This document shows, one piece after another, positions 48,401-62,814 of a stretch of DNA of 64,000 bases. The notes under the pieces were generated by a model. The model searched no databases and was not told where the DNA came from. It saw only the letters and a program-made list of their open reading frames with translations. Origin of the DNA: Numida meleagris (Eukaryota > Chordata > Aves > Galliformes > Numididae); contig NC_034424.1 of the NCBI RefSeq assembly GCF_002078875.1, positions 9,438,959 through 9,502,958 on the forward strand, written 5' to 3'. Each line of letters starts with the position of its first letter. The stretch's first letter is position 1. Position numbers and translations under genes: made by a program.

Positions 48401-51197
48401 TCTTTTTATGTTTTATCAGATTTCCAGAAACTTACGGCAGCAGATGATAAAACAGCCCAAGTTGAAGATTTTCTTCAGTTCTTATATGGAGCAATGGCTC
48501 AGGATGCCATATGGCAGAATGCCAGTGAAGAACAGCTTCAGGATGCACAATTAGCTATAGAGCGCAGTGTAATGAATCGTATTTTCAAACTTGCATTCTA
48601 CCCTAATCAGGACGGAGATATTTTGCGTGACCAGTAAGTCACAGTAGTTTGAAATGTGTGGTTTCTCTTTTGCTGTTGGTGCAGATGGCTGCTTTTTGGT
48701 CTTAATGTGACAGACTTGATTCTCTTAAGGCAGCCATGCCATACAAACTTATGTTTCATTTCAGAATGTCTTGTATGAGAGCCAAGAAGTGCTTTGGCAT
48801 TATGTGCGAAAGTTTGTGTTTGCAACAGACCACAAGAGCAGAATAAAATTAAAAATGTAATGACTTAGATACAGGCTTTCAGTTCTGTATGCATGCTGAG
48901 AGAATGAATAAAATCTGTTTCAGGACTCCTTCCTTCCATTTTCTGTTTTGGTACAGTACTTTCCATCTAGGGTTTTTGTTTTATTTTACAGAACATCTTT
49001 TTTGAATGCTTTACCAACTGTGTAGTTGTACTTGGTTGTATGGGAAAATCCTCTGTGTTGCTTATTGACCTAATGTCCATTAGCTGGGACCATCATGATA
49101 TGCATTCCTGAGGATCTCTCTTGTAGTATACCAAACTAGTGGGAAACCCCAGGGGACTGCTGGCTGCTGCTTACTTCTTACTCTTCTTTTTTGTTTGTTT
49201 TTAGGGTCCTTCATGAGCACATACAGAGGCTATCTAAAGTGGTGACTGCAAACCACAAAGCACTTCAGATTCCTGAGGTAAGAACTTCTTCTTTCCTTCA
49301 CTCCATATGTTGGGGTTCTTTGGGTTTTGATTGTGTTTGTGATGAGGAGAGGGTCACTTTGCTCTACGTTTTGAAACACGGCTGTTTTAGCCATGCAACT
49401 GAAATACCCTGCAGGAAAAAAAACACACTGCACCAATACTTTGGGATCATCCACTGATCTTTTCAAATTCTTTTTTTTTTTCTTGAAATTTTACCACTTC
49501 TGTCCTGATGGTAAGATTGAAGCAGTAATACTCTACTGCACTAAGATGCAAACTTTCTGATAGTTTCCTTTAAAAGACAAGATTTCAACCCTTTATATTT
49601 CTAATGTGACTTACATTCTCTGGCTGTGGTTTGTAGTTACCAAATTAGCTTTCAGAACTGGCCATCGCTAATGGAACTTTGACACATCTATGAATTTGCC
49701 CAGTGTTTTCACTTTTCTCAGGGTAAGAAGGTAACTAAAAGTAGATTGGTAGACTTAAGTCTGTGAGAGGCTGAATGCTTGCAGTCTTCCTAGTTCAGTG
49801 TTTGAGCTGTGTGACTGAAAATGGTAAACATTCATGAAGCTGCTTATATATGGAAGACAGACGTGCAGCTCTACGTTGTTTCAAAATAGGGTACTGTAGA
49901 AGTCAGGAGAAAGTACAGTCTAATTATGTTAATTGCACATACAGTGCTACCTCCATATGATCTTTCATTATAACACAGCAGGAAGCCACCTTTATTCTGT
50001 GTGCAGTGGAACCTTATTGACCTAGAGCTTTCCATTTATCTGGAGCCTTGCTCCTGCCTCTGGTACCGTGGATCCTCTGTGGTGCACAGTAGTAGCCTGG
50101 ATAGATGAAAACTGTCGATGGGTTTCTTTTTCCTAGGTATATCTCCGGGAGGCACCGTGGCCATCTGCACAGTCTGAAATCCGCACAATAAGCGCTTACA
50201 AAACCCCCCGAGACAAAGTGCAGTGTATCCTGCGAATGTGTTCAACCATTATGAACCTGCTTAGCCTGGCAAATGAAGATTCAGTGCCTGGGGCAGATGA
50301 TTTTGTTCCTGTTCTGGTCTTTGTTCTCATAAAGGTGAGTTCTTCTGCAGAGATCACAAACTGCAACTAATTCTTTTAATGAGCAAGCAAATTTTAGGAA
50401 AAATGATAATGCATTTGGGTAACTAGGAGCATGCTAGACTTTAGAAGCAGAGCTAATCCAGCAGGCTTAAATAGAAATGTGTCGCAGTTAAGGTTTTAGA
50501 GTCCAAGCAAACTTTGCAGTTGGATTTAGAGGGGTGGTGGTGGTGGTTTTCGTTGTTGTTCTTCTTTTGGGTGGTTGTTTCTCTTGTTTTTTTTTTTATT
50601 TTTTGAGAAGTGTCTGCCAGCACCTGTCACTTGGGCGTGCTTAATGTTTTTCTCTTTGATGACCAAGATCCACATTAGTACTGACTTGTATTTTTTTGAA
50701 ACATGAGAGTTTGGAGAATGGTCTATGATGTATACAAAGCTAAAATAATAGGTTAATGTGCTGAAGTCTTTGATGACTTTATAGATTCTGCCTGTGATTT
50801 CCTTCTTTTTCGTGGCCTGCATGTCATTTCTCTGTGTTAGACAAATGCTTCTTTCATTGAGTCACATTCCTCCTGAGGGAGTAAAGTGGGGGTGCTCAGG
50901 ATAAACAGTCACTACCCTGCACTGTATTACATAATCACATGTTAGGTGTTTGTGAGGATCACTGCAGAAATAGAATTGTACTTTTATTCTGCATCTTGTA
51001 ATTCTCTAAGTTTAGTTTTGAAAACAAACTGTGTCTTTTTCTTCTTTAACCCTCAGGCAAATCCACCTTGCTTGCTGTCCACTGTTCAGTACATAAGTAG
51101 TTTCTATGCCAACTGCTTATCTGGAGAAGAATCCTATTGGTGGATGCAGTTCACAGCTGCAGTTGAATTCATTAAAACTATTGATGATCGCAAGTAA
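30437..51197 (+). CDS. GAPVD1: GTPase-activating protein and VPS9 domain-containing protein 1 (GAPex-5/RAP6), 1461 aa
   Basis: An endocytic regulator with an N-terminal RasGAP-type domain and a C-terminal VPS9 domain (GEF for Rab5/Rab31). Exons: 30437-30621, 31018-31861, 33023-33109, 34100-34234, 34358-34547, 36751-36911, 37821-37950, 38815-38940, 39777-39950, 40248-40388, 40934-41068, 41637-41756, 42277-42354, 42465-42838, 43387-43474, 43689-43769, 44417-44539, 45007-45136, 45540-45649, 46277-46436, 46898-47085, 48420-48633, 49205-49277, 50137-50334, 51057-51197; total 4386 nt, in phase throughout. RasGAP (about 150-370) shows LLRRGTCAFSILFKLFSEG and CFICPAIVNPEQYGI. The middle is Ser/Pro/acidic and disordered, with a basic PWWRKRF patch. 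The VPS9 end includes LLSLANEDSVPGADDFVPVL and ends AAVEFIKTIDDRK. The start codon is in the second transcript exon. Confidence 0.95.
34989..35006 (+). repeat. Poly(T) tract in GAPVD1 intron
   Basis: A run of at least 15 T between exon 5 and the candidate cassette exon. It could be a simple-repeat expansion or a retroposon remnant; no flanking element was recognised. Confidence 0.5.
35444..35524 (+). CDS. GAPVD1: Candidate 81-nt in-frame cassette exon of GAPVD1
   Basis: Between coding exons 5 and 6 lies an 81-nt open segment with a CAG acceptor after a T-rich tract and the donor TTTG|GTGGGT. Its phase (enters with two bases, leaves with one) fits exactly between the neighbours, so inclusion adds 27 residues (beginning GQQLAAITAWDTSATN) without a frame change. 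It sits just after the TPYNTPQLSPATTP segment. It is not counted in the 1461-aa chain. Confidence 0.55.
39300..39470 (+). mobile_element. Truncated, decayed CR1 LINE 3' end
   Basis: The segment follows the conserved CR1 3' region in order: ACTGGAATGAGTTGCCCAGAG, a GGAGTCTC string, a TTCAAAAC...GACTAGACGTG string, TTTGAGTAGAGGGGCTTGGAC, and CCCCTTCCAGCC...GTTCTGTGA. Only the last ~170 bp of the element survive, with many substitutions and a degraded 3' octamer repeat. It lies in GAPVD1 between coding exons 8 and 9 and contributes no exon. CR1 is the dominant retroposon of birds. Confidence 0.85.
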
Positions 51198-51770: not shown

Positions 51771-54735
51771 ACAGGTTGTTACGTACTGCGTTTTGGTAAA
51801 TGAAAGGACTTCCTCAAAAAGGCAAAGATTAAAAAAGGGCAAACGGAACTATTTATTAAAATGTAATTAAGAGTACTGAAATTCCCAAAACTGGAATTTA
51901 TAGTAGACAGGGCTTGTTAGATAGCTAAACACTTTTTGGCTAGGGCATTAGGGCACTATAAAGGTTTGAATATGTAAAGGAGAGGGTCTGTAAGTTACAA
52001 TAGATAAGCCTAATATAAAAGAGGAGTAATAAAGTACCTTACTGTAATATTTTTTCTGAAATATTGTGTATACTGTACAAACCCCAAACAGAGATCCTTA
52101 ACAGAACCTTGGGCTGTAATATATATTTTGATTAGTGACATTAAATACATATACCAGGGGTTTCAGTGAATGTTTTTACTAAATGTTCTTCATGTTGTCT
52201 GCTATGCAGCAGTGCAAGTTTTACTGTTCATATAAAATATTTTAAAATATAACACTGTTCTTTATGAAACATATCATGACATCAGTTCAGGGTGTTTTAT
52301 AGATTTCCCACCCCACCTTTCCCTTAAACTGACAATTATGAATTCAAAGAAGTTTTTATGCACAATACCACGTGGATTTTTCATGAATGAAGTGGTCTGA
52401 GTGATGGCCGGTGGCTGTCACACGTATACAAGCAATTGCTGTTCTTTTTTTAGCTAGAATTACACTGAAAAAGGACAGCGAGCCTTTATGTTTTTCATGT
52501 CAGTATTATTCTTTGCTCTTCCCGGAGCGTGGAGCGCACTTCTGACAGAAGGACACGTTAAGATGTGGTGTCTGTGAGTGGCAAAGGAAAGAAAATCTTT
52601 CTCACGTTCTTTGCAAAATACGTTTGTTTTGGTTTTGTGTTCGTGTGTGTATTTTGATGATTAAAACCTGTAAGCAACTAGTACTCCAGAAAATAATTTG
52701 GTTAACTGAAATTAGAACAAGTTATTTAAATTATCAAGTGCTTGGTTTGGCTGTGCTACTTGTCAAGGCATCATTAAAGAAACTTATTTACTAGGACTCT
52801 TCTAATATGTAATTCGGTATGGCACTTTTGCCAAGCTAATCCTAAGTGAGAGAGTGGAATGGAAACTTTTATTTAGAGTCTTTCTGCTCTGTGAGAGACT
52901 TCATTCTGTGCAGGAGCGATGCTCGATAGAAACGGAATTCTCTGATTGCCTTACTGCGGTAACTCAGTGTGCAGCACTGCAATACTCCGGTTATTTAGCC
53001 TTGATGGGTTTTTGGTGCTGAACATGTAACTTAATATTGCAAGCACAGCCCTGACCAATAACACTCAGAAGCGAAGCACAAATATGCCCTGGAAGAAATG
53101 GCCAGATCATATCTAAAAGCAATATAAACTTATTTATAGTGAAGTCTCCTTAATATTTAATTATTACTTGAGTATTAGAGATGTTAAGACCAATGTATGA
53201 AAGTTCCTTTAGTCCTGCAGTTTGGCTTTTAGTTGAGGAGAATATCTGATCCTTAAATTGGTCTTGTTCTGAATTGTACTCGTTTAAAGGATGGCACAAA
53301 GACACTAAGCTGGTGGTCGCCCTGTGCATCGCTTCCCTTTGCCTGCTGGCAGACGGGGTTTAATCAGCATCATCACGTCTTTCAGATTTGCTCTCCTTTA
53401 TGGAAGGGGTAAGAACCATTTCCTTTGCAATCTGTATTACGTTGTGTGGGAAAATGCTTAAAAGAACTGGAGTCATTCTGAAAAATTATTTTAAAAACAG
53501 TATTTGTTTCGATGTGCCCCAGATTAGGTGAGAGTCCTCATTGCAAAATTGTCCTTTGCTTTTCTTTTTTTTCTTAAACAACTCCAAAAGTTCCTTAGAT
53601 AGCATTGCTAGGTGTAGTTAGAGAATTAGGTTTTCTGAAGAATTAAAAATCTTCCTGTAATATTTTCCCCTGGTGTCCTGTAATGTTTTATTTTAAAATT
53701 ATAAATTACATGTATAGGAAGTGATGTTGTTAGATTTTGGTGTGCAATAGTAAATGTGAAAAGACAGCGCATAAAGGACCAAAAGTGACAGAACTGTTGC
53801 CAAAAGGTGCCAGCCAACCACGTACACCTGTTTCTGTAAACTTGGTGCTTTCTCTTAAAATGACTTCAACAACCGAAGGACAAATGGGACATTTGGAGGG
53901 AAAGGTTATGGGGGGGTCATTCGCAGTAGGTTGCATTTGTAGACTGGAGGCCTGGCTGCTGACTTGAGCTCTGGTTGTTGGCTTGTCTGGAGGAACTGCC
54001 AAGTTAAACAATGGCATAACTGTCCCTGTTAATTTTGCTAAGGTGGTGGTTTCCTTTTTTGGGGGAAGAGGAGTGAAAGAAAAGGGCTGGTTCTTTCACC
54101 CCTGAGAAATTACCGTTTTTTACTCTTAAGTAAGAATTCTCTTTAAGGCTTTTTTAGATCCTCTTTAAGGAGAATTGGAATGGGTATGGCCTATTAATTA
54201 TTTGAGTTTAGAGGTTTTTGTTTTGAAGACCTTATACTACCAAATGCTGAATGTAACTGCCATAAATTTCAGGAAAAAAAGCCACGATCCTGTTTCCTGT
54301 AGGTGAGTTTCTGGTGAGCACAGTGTCGGTTCGTCGTGCTTGGAAACGTTAACGTTCTTTAAGCCAAATTAGAGCGGAAGTTTGAGAACTGACTGCTGCG
54401 TTAAAACGGCAGCGTGTAGAGGAAGGCTGGTGGGGCAGAAAAGGAGCAGCAGGAAAAGGCAGACCTGTTTAGCAGCAAAGATTCAAGCAAGTGAAGCATG
54501 TGTGTGTGAAATCGAGTGTAACTTATGTGGCTGTGCTGCAGCACCGACTGTGCAGCCTTAGGCTGGCAGCAGGACGGGAGAGCCGGAGCAGCAGGACAGG
54601 GCGGGCGGGCAGCTCTGAGCTGGGTAACAGCTGGTGCCTTGGTTGAGCCTGTACTACTGGAGAATTAACCTCTGCTGAGTTCGTAGTGTGTGTTCTGTAC
54701 CTTTTAATTGTGCTTTACCTCTATTTAAAAGCTTT
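51771..54735. other. AT-rich non-coding stretch after GAPVD1
   Basis: About 3 kb without a credible exon. It may be the distal part of a long GAPVD1 3' UTR or intergenic DNA. No coding exon of MAPKAP1, the human neighbour, was recognised on either strand. Confidence 0.4.
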
Positions 54736-54737
54736 GT

Positions 54738-54900
54738 ACTGCCTCTCCTGTTTGAAACTGGTAAAGCCTTTATACGTCTAAATCAGTGAGCTTGCACAAT
54801 CTTGTACACAGGAAATCCATCTTGTCTCTAACGTGATTATTCATGTATTATTCTGTAAAATCTGATTAAAAGGAGAGCAGTTGACCTGGCTGGAGTCCCT
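54738..54900. promoter_or_regulatory. Non-coding element, copy A of a duplicated pair
   Basis: An AT-rich element with a diverged second copy at 59896-60060 in the same orientation. Shared blocks in order: CTCTCCT, TCTAAAT, GAGCTTGC/AAGCTTGC, ATCTTGTCT, a CATGTATTAT/GCATTATATC block, and CTGATTAAAA followed by GAGCAGTT. It sits at the left edge of the TAAT-rich non-coding domain. Regulatory function is inferred. Confidence 0.5.
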
Positions 54901-55169
54901 GTTTCTGTGCTGTGCCCGTGGGCCTCTGGCGCGGGGACAGCACAGCGCAACGCGCCGGGACCGGGAGCAGCTGCTGGAGCAGGGGAAAGCCGGCTGCCTG
55001 CTGCTGGGGAGCTGCTGCGTCGGTGGGAGCTTCCTGCAGTCACCGTTCTCAGTGCTGGCAGCGGGCAGGAAGCAGCGCCTGAAAGAGCACTCTGCTACGT
55101 GCATTCCCTTTTTCAGCTTTGGAAAAACGGCAGAATTGAGTAATTAGCGTTCTCTGGCGGAGGGCCGGG

Positions 55170-55460
55170 TACAGAACTGCAGGATCCCGTGCGTAACGCG
55201 GGAACGGAGCAGGCCCAACAGCGCGCGGCGCCCGAGCCCTCCCGGCGCGCGGAGGCCGCGTTCGGGGCGGAGCTGCCCCCTGGCGGCCGCGCGGGGCGGT
55301 GCAGCACAGCCCGGCTCTGCGGGCGGCACGGCGGCGGTCCCCGCACGGCCCGGCCCGGCCCGGCCCCCCCAGCGGCGCAGCCCCGGGAGCGGAGCGAGGT
55401 CGGTTCTGCCGCCCGGTGCGGCCGCTGAGCGCGGGGCCGCCGTGAGCGCGGTCCGCGCCG
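55170..55460. promoter_or_regulatory. Isolated CpG island with a CTCF-like core
   Basis: A compact, very CpG-rich segment flanked by AT-rich elements and far from any recognised gene start. TGCCCCCTGGCGGCC at 55274-55288 fits the CTCF core GCCCCCTGGTGGC with one transition. A (GGCCC)n-like run lies at 55345-55370. It could be a boundary element or the promoter of an unrecognised transcript. ORFs in it are GC artefacts. Confidence 0.5.
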
Positions 55461-55479
55461 TGTTATTGACCTTGATTCT

Positions 55480-55735
55480 CTCTCATTTGCATCCGGCATT
55501 TTTCATCCTCTGGAATATGGTGTTTGGGGACCTTTCCATCATTAAGTGGATTTACAGCAATTTCCTTATGTGTTTTCTCCAAGGGATTCTGTTATGAGAG
55601 GCACATTAAATCTCCATTAATACCTCATTATCCGACTGATAAGATTACCATGATAATGAGGCAGAAATTCTAATTGTTTCACTTCTTATTGTGCCTTTCA
55701 TTAAATCATATACCTGGAAGTTGCCGTTGGAGCGA
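55480..55735. promoter_or_regulatory. TAAT-rich putative conserved element with 10-bp inverted repeat
   Basis: About 250 bp of AT-rich sequence with repeated ATTAA, TTAAT and CATTA cores between two GC-rich segments. It contains the perfect inverted repeat CCTCATTATC (55623-55632) and GATAATGAGG (55652-55661). No coding potential. It is called regulatory from composition and motif density only. Confidence 0.45.
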
Positions 55736-56159
55736 GGAGCTGCAGCCCCTGGGTTGGAGCCCGTTCCTGTGTGCTGCCCGTGGCCCCTGGGGGTGTTGGC
55801 ACAGCGGGGACCCCCCGGCCTCCTCCTCCTGCTGCTGCTGCTTGCCCATGGCTCTTGGGCTGCATAGGGCCGGTGCCCGCCTGGCTGGCTGAGCACAGCA
55901 CGCTGTGGGGCAGTGCAGCAGGATGAGAATAGGCTCACAGGGGTTGGTGGCTGCCAGGCTGCGGGACTTGGGCTCTGGTGATGCTGGCACCACTCTCCTC
56001 TCCGTCAGTAACTGCAGCGCTCTCTCAGAGGCTCAGGCGTGGGCCCTGTCCCTGGCAATTACCCTCCCCTGGGCCTAGCATGGCCTTAGCGCCTGCTCAC
56101 GTGCCAGGGCCGTGGCTTCTCACTGCTCTTTCCTGAGGGCTTCCAGGTGCAGGGGTGTA

Positions 56160-56345
56160 CAGCGTGTCACAGCCTCCTTTGAGCTGTTACAGCCCATCAG
56201 GTCAATGATCCATGAACTAAAAAGTCTCTAAGCAGGAGCAATTATTGTCTATCATGTGTCAAAGGCGCCTGTATTGACCCCGATAGATGGAGCCATTATG
56301 GCCTGTTGAGTCAACGATCCATGAACCTCAGTCCCTGGGAGTGGA
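56160..56345. promoter_or_regulatory. Putative conserved element with repeated 17-mer
   Basis: GTCAATGATCCATGAAC at 56201-56217 recurs as GTCAACGATCCATGAAC at 56310-56326 (one mismatch). Between them lie GAGCAATTATTGTC and a TATTGACC string. It is an AT-balanced island in a GC-rich surround. Confidence 0.4.
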
Positions 56346-57009
56346 GGTCCTGCCTCACTGTGCTGGCACGGCCTGTCCCCCGAGATGAGCTGCGTTGTGT
56401 CCGCGTGGCCAATCCCCCTGTTCTGGGTGGCTTCTCTCCCTCTGCTGGGCAGGGCCTGGACCAGGCTGGTGGCAGCTGTGGGGACAAGGATGGGGAGACG
56501 GAGCCCTGGCCTCGTGTTAGTGCCCCTACCCGTGCTGCTCATGTCTGGATCTGTAGTGGCAAATAGTGTTATCCTGCACAAGTGGAATTGGTTAGGCTCC
56601 TCCTGCGCTAACAAGGCGATGTCTCCATAGTAACCAGCGCATTTGGAGGGCAGGAGGCACAGGGGAGACAAAGCCTGCGCAGGAACGGCGGCCGAGCCCA
56701 CAGCACACGGCCCAGCAGGGGCGATGCGTTCCCCCGTGATGCTGCTCCGGCCCCGCTGCAGTCCTGCAGGGAGCTGGGTCCAATGGTGCAGCCCTGGTGC
56801 TTGTTGTGGCCGCGCAGCAGCAGGGCGATGGCTGTGGCAGGGTGAGGTCCTGGCACTGACCTGCTGAACCACGGCCACCCACGTGCCTGTGGTCTGGCTG
56901 TGCTGCAGCAGCTGTGCCAGGCAGGTGTGGGGCTGGCGGGGCCCTGCCGTGCTGCCCACCCTGCCAGCAGCATGGCCACGTCCCCGTGTCGCCAGCAGAG
57001 CCACTGGGC

Positions 57010-57300
57010 TGGGGTTAATCAACATTCATTCATGTTTCCAAGTGTAAATTGAGCATTTGTTTAATTACGTGTAAGTAGCAATACATTCTGGCCATTATCT
57101 AAATCACTATTTTATTTCCTGGATGTGGTTTCATAATGCTGGGTTTGTGCTCCAGCCTCTGCATCATTAACAGAGAAGAGTTAATGAATATAAAAGCGTA
57201 AAGGCTAATTACACTTTAATTTACAATCATGGTCTCATTTTGGGACCACATGAAATCTGTTTTGAAAACAATTAAAAAAAAAATCCCAGTGAAGGTCTGT
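57010..57300. promoter_or_regulatory. TAAT-rich putative conserved element
   Basis: Dense homeodomain-type cores (TTAATCAACATTCATTCATG, TTTAATTACG, GTTAATGAATAT, GGCTAATTACAC) in about 290 bp, with abrupt GC-rich borders on both sides. No ORF or repeat similarity. Confidence 0.4.
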
Positions 57301-57419
57301 CTGGTGAGCAGCGGGGTTTTGGCACTCAGTGAGCGGTGCCAGCAGTGGGGCACGGTGTGCGGGGCCGGGGCTGCCCTGGGTACAGAGCAGAGAGGAACGT
57401 AAAGCTGAGCCTGAGTGGA

Positions 57420-57560
57420 GAGCACAGTTCACCTGAAGGAGACAAAGATTTATAGGGCTGCAGATGTTGAAAGCAAAATTCAGCAGGACTGCTGACTCGA
57501 GCACTTTGCAGTATTTACAATTACTGGAGATATAATGGTGTGCTTTGCGGGAGCGGGGCT
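57420..57560. promoter_or_regulatory. Putative conserved element
   Basis: AT-balanced island (around GACAAAGATTTATAGG and TTTACAATTACTGGAG) between GC-rich stretches. Weak evidence, from composition only. Confidence 0.3.
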
Positions 57561-58359
57561 GGAGCAGAGGAGGAATCGGAGCCCAGATATCGCGGGGTGA
57601 CGCGATCTGAAATTGAGGCTTGTAGCACAAGAGGCGAAGGAGAGCAGCTTAGGGCTCCAGTTCTGCTGTGACACCTGCGGGGACTGCGCTTGTGGACTGG
57701 TGTGCATGTGTACATGCGGGTGTGCACCTCCACTGCTGTGGTGGCAGCAGGTGAATATCTCTGTGTTTCCTTCATTGTTCTGATTCTCTCAAAAATGAAA
57801 AAAAAACTGAGTGCCGACTTCAGGAGGGAGTGGGGCCTGTTCTTCGTGCTGGGCTGGCTGCCTGCAGCGGAAATAAATCTCCCCAAGAAAACCACTTTGC
57901 TCTCACAATTTCAATCCAGCAGGGCATAGTGGCATCACTCACTTCTTGTTTTATTTAGCTGATAATCCTTTATTGGGCCGGCAGAGCTCTGTGGGAGCAC
58001 AGTGCTGTTCCAGGGCTGCGGGCAGTGATGTCTGTGAGCAGATCTGTGCTGGGGCTGCAACCCGAACAAGGACAGGACATGTCCTACTGCTCCCAGGCAG
58101 TTCTGGAGGCAGCTCTGGGCCATCTGCTCAGGGTTTTGAGGACTCAGCACTCACGGTGGCCCAGAGGCTCTGCAAATGCCGCTGCTGGTGATGAATGTGC
58201 TGAGCCCCGGACGAGGGGGCTCCGCCAACACTGGGGCATGGTGTGGGGCCGTGAGCTGCTGAGCCTAGCGCTTGGCCATCCCCGCTGCCCTCCCCCTTCT
58301 GGCACCAGAGCTCTGTGCAGCTGAAACCCTTCCGAGTCCCTCAGACAGGTTTGTCATCC

Positions 58360-58515
58360 ACTTGTCACTGAGCAGCAAGGCCGTGTCACTAATGAACACA
58401 TCCAGCGCTCTGAGTGCCTGCAGTTGCTAATTGAAAGCATTCACAATTGGGAATTAATGTGGGTTAGGCGCACTCACTGCACTAATAAAGATTTGCCTTT
58501 CAAAAGCCTCTGTCT
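58360..58515. promoter_or_regulatory. Putative conserved element
   Basis: Contains GTCACTAATGAACAC, TTGCTAATTGAAAGC, GGGAATTAATGTGG and CACTAATAAAGATTTG: four TAAT cores in about 120 bp within GC-rich sequence. Confidence 0.4.
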
Positions 58516-58739
58516 GCTGAAGGCGGCAGCGGGGCGGTGCTGGGGAGCAGCACTGTTGGCCCAGTGGCACCACACTGCACAGTGTGCCCCATCCACACCA
58601 TGTCCTGCTGCGGGCAGTGCTGCAAAGTTCTCGGTGCTGTGTGGGCAGCCTGTGCCCTCCAGCAGCAGCTGTGGCTGAGGTGGCTGCTCTGCACAGCACA
58701 GGCCGTTCTCCCAGTCCCCACTGCCCCGGTGTTACTGGT

Positions 58740-59010
58740 CGTGGGTTTGTATTTACTTCAGATCGCGGATGGAAGTGTTGAATGTCACCATTCGATGACG
58801 ATTCCCCATTGACAGCCGCTTTCTGAGAGCTGTCAGTCAGTAGGTTCCTAATCCTTTTAATATGTGCTCTATTGATATTACATAGAGCTAATTTTTTAAT
58901 CAAAACGTCATGTACTATTAAATCAAATGCCTAACAGGACCTGCGCGTACCGCCGCTCCTCAGTGACTTTCATTAGTTACACTTTTAAATTCGGAGAACA
59001 AACCCAAATT
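58740..59010. promoter_or_regulatory. Putative conserved element with TALE (TGACAG/CTGTCA) and TAAT sites
   Basis: TTGACAGCC near 58810 and AGCTGTCAGTCAG near 58829 provide paired TGACAG-type TALE homeodomain sites. They are followed by CCTTTTAATATG, TTTTTTAATCAAAAC and TATTAAATCAAATG. Non-coding; sharp composition borders. Confidence 0.45.
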
Positions 59011-59895
59011 TTTTGATGAGCCCCAGTTAGCTGCGAGCTGTGCTAGCGGGCACCAGCAGCACTGCCTTCCTGCAGTGACTGGATCTGTGCTCAGCTCTTC
59101 AGCTGCGTTCTGCAGCACTGGTGTTGGCTGGAGGGGATCCCAGCGCAGCGCTGGTGCTCAGGAGCGCGGCGGGGGCCCTCGGTGCTGCAGGCACTGTGCT
59201 GCGTGCCGCAGTCTTCTGCTCCATGGCACCAGTAGCTCTAGGTGGGCTTCTGCAGTGAGGTGGGTCCTGAGGCTGTGGTACCCACGTGTCCAGTGGTGGA
59301 TCCCGGCCACAGGGATATGGGGACACGGACACGGGGCTGGGTGAGTGGCGTGGCCCCGCTGCCACCTGTGCTGGGTGAGGAGCGGGGCAAGGGCACTTCA
59401 CGGTTAACGGCCCGGTGGGGAAATGGGAATTTTCTTCCTGTATTGGATGCAGCCTCTGACCTGAAAACAACCAATCCAGCCTCTCCTGGACGCGGAGCAC
59501 GCACAGGCGTGCAAATGCGAGATGACAGCCCATGGCACACCAATATGGTTACCAGCTGTCCGGCCGCCATGGGCCGTGCTGTCCTGGACACAGGTGCAGC
59601 CGGGGAGGGGATGCAGGTGGGGGCAGGGAGGGGCGGGCGGGGGCACACTGCCCATTGCCACGGGCTGAGCATCCACACCGCCCCCACATCTCGAGGGGCC
59701 CCTGGCAGCCGTGCCCCCGGCTGCACAGCAGCCTCATGAAAAGCTCTGATTCTGGAGAGCAGCCATTGTTTGTGCACCTCCCTTAATTCCTGGGCTAACT
59801 TCTTCCTCCCATCCCCTCGCAGCATCTCCCTGCTTGGTCTCTGAGCTGCGGGACCCGCGGTGGGGGTGGTGGAACCCCATGCTGGGGCTTTGCCA

Positions 59896-60060
59896 TGTCT
59901 CTCCTCTTCAGATCAAGCAACTCTTTGTAAATCTAAATTAATAAGCTTGCCCGGCTATAGACAGAGGAACACGTACTGTATCTTGTCTTTGTCGATCAAT
60001 GCATTATATCATCCCATAAAACTGATTAAAAAGCAGAGCAGTTCATCTCGCCAGGTTCCA
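59896..60060. promoter_or_regulatory. Non-coding element, copy B of a duplicated pair
   Basis: Second copy of the 54738-54900 element, same orientation, about 5.16 kb away. The blocks CTCTCCT, ATCTAAAT, AAGCTTGC, ATCTTGTCT, CATTAT and CTGATTAAAAAGCAGAGCAG align in order with only small gaps. Confidence 0.5.
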
Positions 60061-60235
60061 CGTCTCAACATTATAAATTTCATATTATGGTTAATGATTG
60101 TCAGTGCAGACGGAGTACATGCAAGCTGATCAGTATTGTAGTTTATAATTAATTATTGAAGTGTTGCTGCAGAGGACACCAAGGAGGGGGTGGCTGCTGA
60201 TTAGCAATTTGTTCTCTCTAAAACACCGAAGGAGC
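60061..60235. promoter_or_regulatory. Putative conserved element with TALE/HOX composite site
   Basis: Directly abuts copy B. Contains ATGATTGTCAG (60094-60104), one mismatch from the PBX-MEIS composite TGATTGACAG over its core, and the 12-bp palindrome ATAATTAATTAT (60145-60156). Confidence 0.4.
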
Positions 60236-60690: not shown

Positions 60691-61079
60691 GCTCCTCCGC
60701 GGGGGTGCCGGCTGATCGAGGGGATTTAGCTTTTATTGACTAATAATAATGTTTTACAAAGGGAGAAGCGGGGCCCTGCGCCAAAGGAAAGTGTCTGAGC
60801 TCGCAGAGCGACTGGCTCACAGCGGCGGTTTGTGTTTGTTTATTTTCCATTCCCGGGTTTATCACGGTGCTGATTTCAATCCCCCAGCAGCGAAGCAATG
60901 AGAAGCACCAAACTGGAATGCAAACGGCCACGTTTCCCCAGAAGACGGTTTTCTGTGTGAGTGAAAGCTTCCAAATGGCATGGTGGGAGGGCAGCGCTCG
61001 GAAAGGGGCATCTGCAGCGCCCGACTGCAGAGCAGCGCGTCCCCGCATCCCCAGCCCTTCGAGCAGCCCAGTGTGTGAG

Positions 61080-61270
61080 AACGTATGGTAAAAGGATATT
61101 AAAGCCTAGGACAAGATTGACATGGAAATATAGTGTTTAAATATTTTCTCTCAGAAACCCAGATGCTTAACAGTTTGTAGTACAGACAAATTTTATCATT
61201 TTAGAAAGAATTAGCTTTGAAACGTTCTTTGTGTGTACCCACTGGGTTAACACATGGGTCAGCAAGGCAG
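61080..61270. promoter_or_regulatory. Putative conserved element
   Basis: About 190 bp of AT-rich, non-repetitive sequence (GACAAGATTGACATGG, GTTTAAATATTTTC, AATTTTATCATTTTAG) between GC-rich segments. Composition-based call. Confidence 0.3.
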
Positions 61271-61614
61271 CAGGTCATGGTACTAGTGTTCATGGTACCC
61301 CCACTCATGCCACTGCCGTGCTGCAGGCTGGGGCAGGGACGGGACTGTGAGCACACGGCTCCCCACGGTCCTCCTATCCCCTTGTGCCGCTGGGACGAGT
61401 GTGGAGTCCCCGCTCCACCCCACATGGAGCTGCCCCAGCCCCAGGCATGGGGACGGGGATGGCCGGAACAGGGCCAGGATGGGGTCAGGATGGGGCTGTG
61501 GCACTGTGTGCGCATGCTGTGCGGTGCCGGAGGGCTGCAGGCAGCGGCCTCAAGGTGGCACGCTGGGAGTGGGAACCACGCTGCAGAACAAAGGCGGCTG
61601 CGTGCAGCCCAGCC

Positions 61615-61698
61615 TGCAGCTCATCCTGCCGCTCATCCTGCACCTCACCCCACAGCTCACCCTGCAGCTCACCCTGCAGCTCACCCTGCAGCCCCAGC
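61615..61698 (+). repeat. 12-bp minisatellite, about seven units
   Basis: Tandem units CTGCAGCTCACC and close variants (CTGCAGCTCATC, CTGCCGCTCATC, CTGCACCTCACC, CCACAGCTCACC). The last three full units are identical, pointing to recent homogenisation at one end. Shadow ORFs across it encode four-residue repeats and are rejected as genes. Confidence 0.85.
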
Positions 61699-62189
61699 CT
61701 GGCCCCAGCTGCAGAGCCAGCACCTGCTCTGGGCAGGAACACGGTGCAACGCTGACAGCCAAACCCCATGGTTATCTGGATGGTGTCATCGCAGATGAGC
61801 AGCATGAAAAGGAGCTGTCCGTGCACGAGGAATTGGGTGACTCTGTAGCACCCGTGCTGGGGCACTGGCATGTGCTTTCCTGCTGGTGCCAGCGTTAGTC
61901 CCACATCATTCCCTCCTGTGCACACATCGGTGCAACGTGCTGGCTGCTGGTGGGGCCGTGAGCGGTGCGCACTCTCAGGCAGAGGTGGCACAGCTCCAGG
62001 CAGAGCTCCCAGGCTGTCTGTGTCATCAGCGCTCGCATGGCCCCGTGGTGGCAAAGTTTTGCCCATCTCATTTGGTGCCAACCCGCGCCTGCGGCCGCCC
62101 GCACCATGCCAGCTGTGTGCCTGCTCCATGCCGGGGCTGTCCTGCAATTACTGCGTGCTGGGGGGAGCTGCTTGGTGCTGCTGCCTTGA

Positions 62190-62600
62190 CATTGAGACCT
62201 AAATTTGCCATAAAACCAAATGGATGCATACACCCACATTTCTGAGGCTTTTAGTTCAGCAACAAGTGAATCCATCAAAGCCCAGCACCTAATTTAATAG
62301 CAATAATGAAAGGTGTGCGTCACTATTAATTTAAGCACTTCAACATTAGCCTTGCACTTAGAAACCAGCAAGGCAGAGCTATTTACAAATGAATGTACCG
62401 GGGCAATAAATTGAAAGTACTGGTTTGACCTGCGGTGGCTGCTTTTTCATTTATACTCAGATACATTTCTATAGAGGAATTTACTCCCGTCTCTTTAGCG
62501 AGGCCTCCCTAATTAAGTTGAAGTGGCAGTGGAAGTGTGGCAGTAAGTGTAGAAAGAAGCGGCTAAAAATGTATTTAATTCATTATAAATAATCTTTGAT
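62190..62600. promoter_or_regulatory. Largest TAAT-rich putative conserved element
   Basis: About 400 bp of AT-rich unique sequence. Cores include CCTAATTTAATAGC, CACTATTAATTTAAGC, CCCTAATTAAGTTG and GTATTTAATTCATTATAAAT, with the surround reverting to GC-rich. No ORF or transposon. Confidence 0.45.
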
Positions 62601-62814
62601 ACCAGAAGGTTGGATAAAGGTTTGCAGTATCAGAGCAGGCTGCCGAGGAGGCCAAGGAGATTGCTCGTGAGCAGCAAAAGCATTTGCATGGCTGGGTTTG
62701 ACCTCGTCACACCGAGGGAAGGAGCTGCGGGTGGAAGGGGGGGCTGCCGGCACCAGAGCTGGCAGTGGGACGGGTGGGGGCTGCAGCGTGGGGTGCCGGC
62801 TCTCTGCTGCGCGT

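Follow-up and report, generated by a model that had tools for sequence, protein, structure and literature searches.

Two related segments of non-coding DNA were analyzed in a stretch of 64,000 nucleotides from Numida meleagris (contig NC_034424.1, positions 9,438,959 to 9,502,958 of the forward strand). This stretch is called the window, and its numbering is used below unless contig positions are indicated. Copy 1 (54715-54905, core 54738-54890) and copy 2 (59871-60066, core 59896-60051), both on the plus strand, were delimited by alignment, nhmmer and a sequence model built from the two copies. When eight open frames were scanned against Pfam, five gave matches. Pfam placed metallophosphatase exons at 12.8-13.9 kb (minus strand), kelch repeats at 15.8 kb, a DUF5601 exon at 48.4 kb and a VPS9 exon at 51.0 kb (both plus strand); we take these to represent PPP6C, RABEPK and, for the last two, GAPVD1. 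The VPS9-domain gene has the end of its final coding exon at 51060-51197 (plus strand), with the last codon ending at 51194 and a TAA stop at 51195-51197. CRIM-domain exons of a MAPKAP1-type gene were found on the minus strand at contig positions 9551527-9555728, 52 kb beyond copy 2; the second CRIM match holds one stop. These exons were placed by the CRIM family, and the SIN1_PH family gave no match either here or in any control genome. PBX-type (PBC) exons were detected on the plus strand at contig positions 9594983-9675638, 96 kb beyond copy 2, and a homeodomain match at 238141 in window numbering. The gene order GAPVD1, MAPKAP1, PBX3 holds on the contig, and both copies sit between GAPVD1 and MAPKAP1.

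According to the excerpted text of the papers cited, the corresponding vertebrate neighborhood is a block of 42 ultraconserved elements that is listed with FAM125B, GAPVD1, MAPKAP1, and PBX3 and classed as a 'winner' in five fish genomes (PMC3436827). One cluster of conserved elements is common to PBX3 and LMX1B (PMC526512). PBX3 has 29.16 conserved bases for each kb of human sequence and ranks among the human transcription-factor genes with the highest density of elements conserved between human and fugu (PMC2148067).

Local alignment of 54738-54900 with 59896-60060 yielded 108 identical columns among the 143 aligned (75.5%), with 21 gap positions and a score of 79.5, whereas 3000 dinucleotide-preserving shuffled pairs scored 19.8 on average (standard deviation 3.1) and 41.5 at most. 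A wider alignment of the pair, with 120 of 167 columns identical (71.9%), contained 27 transitions and 20 transversions, corresponding to a Jukes-Cantor distance of 0.35. With either copy as nhmmer query against 264 kb (the window plus 200 kb downstream, including 22,814 N), the sister copy was recovered at expectation values (E) of 2.9e-7 and 1.3e-7. In a search of 38.8 kb, nhmmer extended the homology to 54715-54894 with 59871-60055 (E 2.4e-10), and local alignment placed its right edge at 54905 in copy 1 and 60066 in copy 2; the element is about 180 bp long. A sequence-only reading of this DNA had described ordered blocks in one orientation, repeated about 5.2 kb apart. Both the homology, which scored far above all 3000 shuffles, and the spacing (5.16 kb, same strand) were borne out, and its estimate of roughly two-thirds identity proved slightly low (72-75% of aligned columns).

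The blocks named in that reading (CTCTCCT, TCTAAAT, AGCTTGC, ATCTTGTCT, and CTGATTAAAA with GAGCAGTT) were recovered in both copies. Block TCTAAATNANTNAGCTTGC, identified by alignment and used in the genome seed search, lies at 54777-54795 in copy 1 and at 59932-59950 in copy 2, and block ATCTTGTCT, identified by alignment, at 54819-54827 and 59980-59988. The tail block reads CTGATTAAAA..GAGCAGTT in copy 1 (54862-54882, with TGATTAA at 54863 and ATTAAA at 54865) and CTGATTAAAA...GAGCAGTT in copy 2 (60022-60043, with TGATTAA at 60023 and ATTAAA at 60025). All of these blocks are on the plus strand.

When the region was compared with itself, using 156 queries of 200 bases that overlapped across 54.4-70 kb and a target of 51.2-90 kb, the two copies were the only pair better than E 0.003. 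Six of the 21 rows up to E 0.02 represented this pair, and the 15 others (E 0.0031-0.019) were close to the number expected from 156 queries, on which ground a larger segmental duplication was rejected. Neither local alignment nor nhmmer detected anything in common between the flanks of the two copies. Blastn searches of the 264 kb recovered the sister as fragments only (best E 0.009), and each copy recovered itself alone in a whole-genome DNA search; both methods are too blunt for divergence at 72-75% identity.

No third copy was found in the 264 kb, either by nhmmer, whose next matches were at E 1 or worse, or by the two-copy sequence model. In the assembly of 1,043,257,979 bases, the tail pattern CTGATTAAAAN{1,5}GAGCAGTT had two matches, both at this locus, and its reversed control had none. 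TCTAAATNANTNAGCTTGC, with one mismatch allowed, matched 41 times genome-wide, including both copies, versus 3 times for its reversed control; as this control contains CpG, a dinucleotide seldom found in genomes of this kind, the excess of seed matches was left uninterpreted. CTGATTAAAANNAGAGCAGTT, with a spacing that agrees with copy 1 but not with copy 2, matched 74 times with two mismatches allowed (reversed control, 14). Both seeds (lists of n = 41 and n = 74) occurred within 250 bases of each other in copy 1 only; copy 2, whose tail is known from the tail pattern, escapes this two-seed test through its different tail spacing.

All 39 other TCTAAATNANTNAGCTTGC matches were fetched and aligned, and none of them extended convincingly past the seed. 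Their best local scores were 46 and 43, as compared with 93 for the sister pair and at most 39 for random stretches (342 kept of 400 drawn, after removal of any that contained N or lay close to the locus); because the fetched places were chosen for the seed, their scores are inflated. The best nhmmer matches at seed-selected places had E 0.00096 (L070), 0.0037 (L045), 0.0087 (L072), and 0.0096 (L058). The two-copy model (R1), searched over 278,001 bases, gave E 0.0066 (L063), 0.0072 (L070), 0.014 (L039), and 0.026 (L066) at best elsewhere; the copies themselves reached 1e-39 to 1e-40, but R1 had been built from them. The weak seed-selected matches span 35-96 bases, and an additional exact seed match at C2:80375054 (L034) shows little similarity outside the seed. 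At L063, L070, L039, and L072, 30-96 bases of the element were matched, slightly better than at the other seed places; given the seed-based selection, this similarity is likely due to chance. Exact patterns were also encountered in viral and prokaryote contigs (2 and 5 stretches, respectively) and were taken as chance. A dispersed repeat such as a short interspersed nuclear element (SINE), with many copies at unrelated loci, was rejected, since only two copies were found at the sensitivity of the seeds, nhmmer and the model; copies more diverged than the seed patterns allow could escape. The sequence-only reading had also considered exaptation of an ancient SINE-like repeat. This option received no support at seed-pattern sensitivity, which very small or very diverged families could escape.

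The element does not encode protein: gap lengths of 4, 6, 1, 1, 1 and 5, 2, 1, together with stops that interrupt 11 of the 12 copy-frames, led to rejection of a coding function, one plus-strand frame of copy 2 being stop-free over 196 bases. A structured RNA was not supported, as the fold of copy 2 is no more stable than those of shuffles and the fold of copy 1 marginally more stable (plus strand: z +0.21, with 120 of 200 shuffles as good, and z -1.57, with 14 of 200, respectively; minus strand: z +0.12 and -0.25), and no Rfam family reached its gathering score in the window. The consensus fold of both copies comprises 24 pairs, with both sides changed in 6 of these; its outer stem resembles the fold of copy 1 itself, although two sequences decide little in this respect.

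Both copies are AT-rich islands, with a GC content of 0.386 and 0.385 as compared with 0.54-0.73 in the four flanking stretches. A permissive motif scan located TGATTAA and AGGAA at homologous places in both copies, and most other motif matches differed. We take TGATTAA to be a homeodomain-type (PBX/HOX-type) site and AGGAA an ETS-type site. Candidate sites specific to copy 1 would, on our assignment of motif names, be an E-box, a nuclear-receptor half-site and C/EBP-type sites; those specific to copy 2 are presumably of FOX and CDX/HOX type. Presumed SOX-type sites occur twice in copy 2 and once, elsewhere in the alignment, in copy 1.

The GC-rich intergenic region contains more AT-rich islands (55451-55750, 57001-57350, 58751-59000, 60050-60200, 61051-61300, and 62201-62700), and these are candidate conserved elements belonging to the same block. 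The stretch 55201-55400, some 300 bases beyond copy 1, has a GC content of 0.85 and 35 CpG in 200 bases, and is possibly an unannotated promoter or CpG island. In a second small local repeat, 56181-56217 and 56290-56326, two 37-base units lie 109 bases apart and share 73% identity; 15 of their final 16 bases agree (TCAAYGATCCATGAAC). The local score of this repeat is 34, the best of 3000 shuffles being 33, and adjacent windows scoring above 34 exist in the region, of which several lie in the GC-rich stretch 55201-55400 or in a tandem array of a 12-base unit, in seven registers, at 61593-61702.

The same orientation, the spacing of 5.16 kb and the lack of a third copy in the 264 kb or among the genome seed patterns make local duplication of one element well supported. 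As to the proposal of the sequence-only reading that a regulatory element was duplicated, the duplication stands, and the regulatory role is one that we infer from the locus. The shared TGATTAA and AGGAA sites and the AT-rich islands in GC-rich flanks are the grounds on which the copies are read as two diverged, putative PBX3 enhancers. On balance, we consider it somewhat probable that a local duplication gave rise to a second copy of a non-coding element about 180 bp in length, which has been kept in two diverged forms that act as PBX3 enhancers. According to this proposal, the element would have been copied once, in place and in the same orientation, in the interval from GAPVD1 to MAPKAP1/PBX3, and selection would have retained the two copies while they diverged to about 72-75% identity. 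Each copy would then be a distal cis-regulatory module (enhancer) within the PBX3 regulatory block. Ancestral transcription-factor sites, including the PBX/HOX-type site TGATTAA within the tail, the best-kept part, would be common to the copies, and the differences in other candidate sites may have made them partly redundant or subfunctionalized enhancers.

Several observations weigh against this proposal. Few motif matches are common to both copies at homologous places, and a scan of this kind is permissive. The identical columns show no more clustering than chance would produce (p 0.17 for the longest run, of 16, and p 0.18 for the sum of squared runs), so that the alignment itself gives no sign of selection. 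The neutral rate in birds is approximately 2e-9 substitutions per site per year, at which a distance of 0.35 could be reached by drift in roughly 90 million years. The unclustered identity and the distance both agree with a neutral local duplication, in which an error of replication or repair would have duplicated about 180 bp a single time, leaving two copies that drift without function. We nevertheless regard such an origin as unlikely, because both copies have remained AT-rich amid GC-rich surroundings and because, in the excerpted sources, constrained elements are densely packed in this neighborhood in other vertebrates (PMC3436827, PMC2148067). The unlike flanks would fit constraint, but equally a duplication of just this size.

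Two retained copies of an ancient low-copy transposable element, of the UCON/Eulor type or a short DNA transposon, would account for the pair as well, and many such ancient families are present in Repbase, according to the excerpted text of PMC5753468. Copy 1 has near-inverted ends (ACTGCCTCTCCT...AGGAGAGCAGT); among random placements, 0.37% equaled them in 51.2-64 kb and 0.16% did so in the window. The corresponding ends of copy 2 are at chance (36% and 34% of random placements as good), the inverted ends were chosen by eye and after the fact, and the left edge of homology lies 23 bases outside them. With regard to the terminal repeats or tRNA/5S-like head of transposable elements, inverted ends are present in copy 1 only, and the Rfam search of the window gave no family at its gathering score. 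As the inverted ends are confined to copy 1 and were selected in this way, a short DNA transposon is disfavored. Together with the failure of seeds, nhmmer and model to find a further copy (weak matches at best E 0.0066 with the model and 0.00096 with nhmmer), these observations make an origin from a transposable element improbable. Least probable by our estimate is an element acting at the RNA level, with copy 1 as the distal end of the GAPVD1 3' untranslated region, carrying ATTAAA as its poly(A) signal, and copy 2 as a duplicated, unused or alternative 3' end: ATTAAA does occupy a homologous place in both copies, GC content climbs after copy 1, and the 60 bases after the copy 1 signal have a G+T content of 63%, more than after any other of the 17 signals in 51.2-60.2 kb (the signal at 52140 has 62%), but nine other AATAAA/ATTAAA signals, from 51591 on, are closer to the stop codon, the sequence downstream of the copy 2 signal is 47% G+T, and the folds described above are not beyond shuffles in copy 2 and are marginal in copy 1.

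Duplicated conserved non-coding elements were reportedly described by McEwen et al. in 2006. The pair of putative PBX3 enhancers resembles them in consisting of two diverged, homologous non-coding copies within one genome, in the regulatory block of a developmental gene. Shadow enhancers need not share ancestry; shadow and tandem-duplicated enhancers are related regulatory modules near one target, as the two copies would be. UCON/Eulor repeats are, as described in the excerpted text of PMC5753468, also short, old, low-copy, and non-coding, but occur at several loci, whereas the element has two neighboring copies. The excerpts of a review (PMC5728398) state that most conserved elements are single-copy, describe non-unique ones as apparent products of whole-genome duplication, and ask whether similarity is greater among elements within a block than between elements of different blocks. 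In contrast to copies near paralogous genes from a whole-genome duplication, both copies lie 5.16 kb apart at one locus, and the origin of the pair is different from whole-genome duplication. The seed lists contained no match near the PBX-type genes on C10 (5.72-5.81 Mb, taken to be PBX1) and C1780, where diverged copies could escape. The PBX3 block of 42 ultraconserved elements, as listed in the excerpts of PMC3436827, has the same gene neighborhood, the comparison being one of neighborhood rather than of element coordinates. Among the literature matches listed, judged by titles and abstract starts, no report of this pair was found.

How conserved non-coding blocks gain members is an open question. 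More tentatively than the enhancer proposal itself, the pair may suggest that an ultraconserved block can grow by local copying, an ancestral PBX3 enhancer having been duplicated long ago, with both copies under selection and diverging in function. If true, this would provide a counter-example to the view of such elements as single-copy or paired by whole-genome duplication, and if both copies were old and constrained, they would constitute a clear case of a regulatory block enlarged by local copying. If it can be dated in other genomes, a pair of copies at one locus upstream of PBX3 would permit a direct test of enhancer duplication and subfunctionalization.

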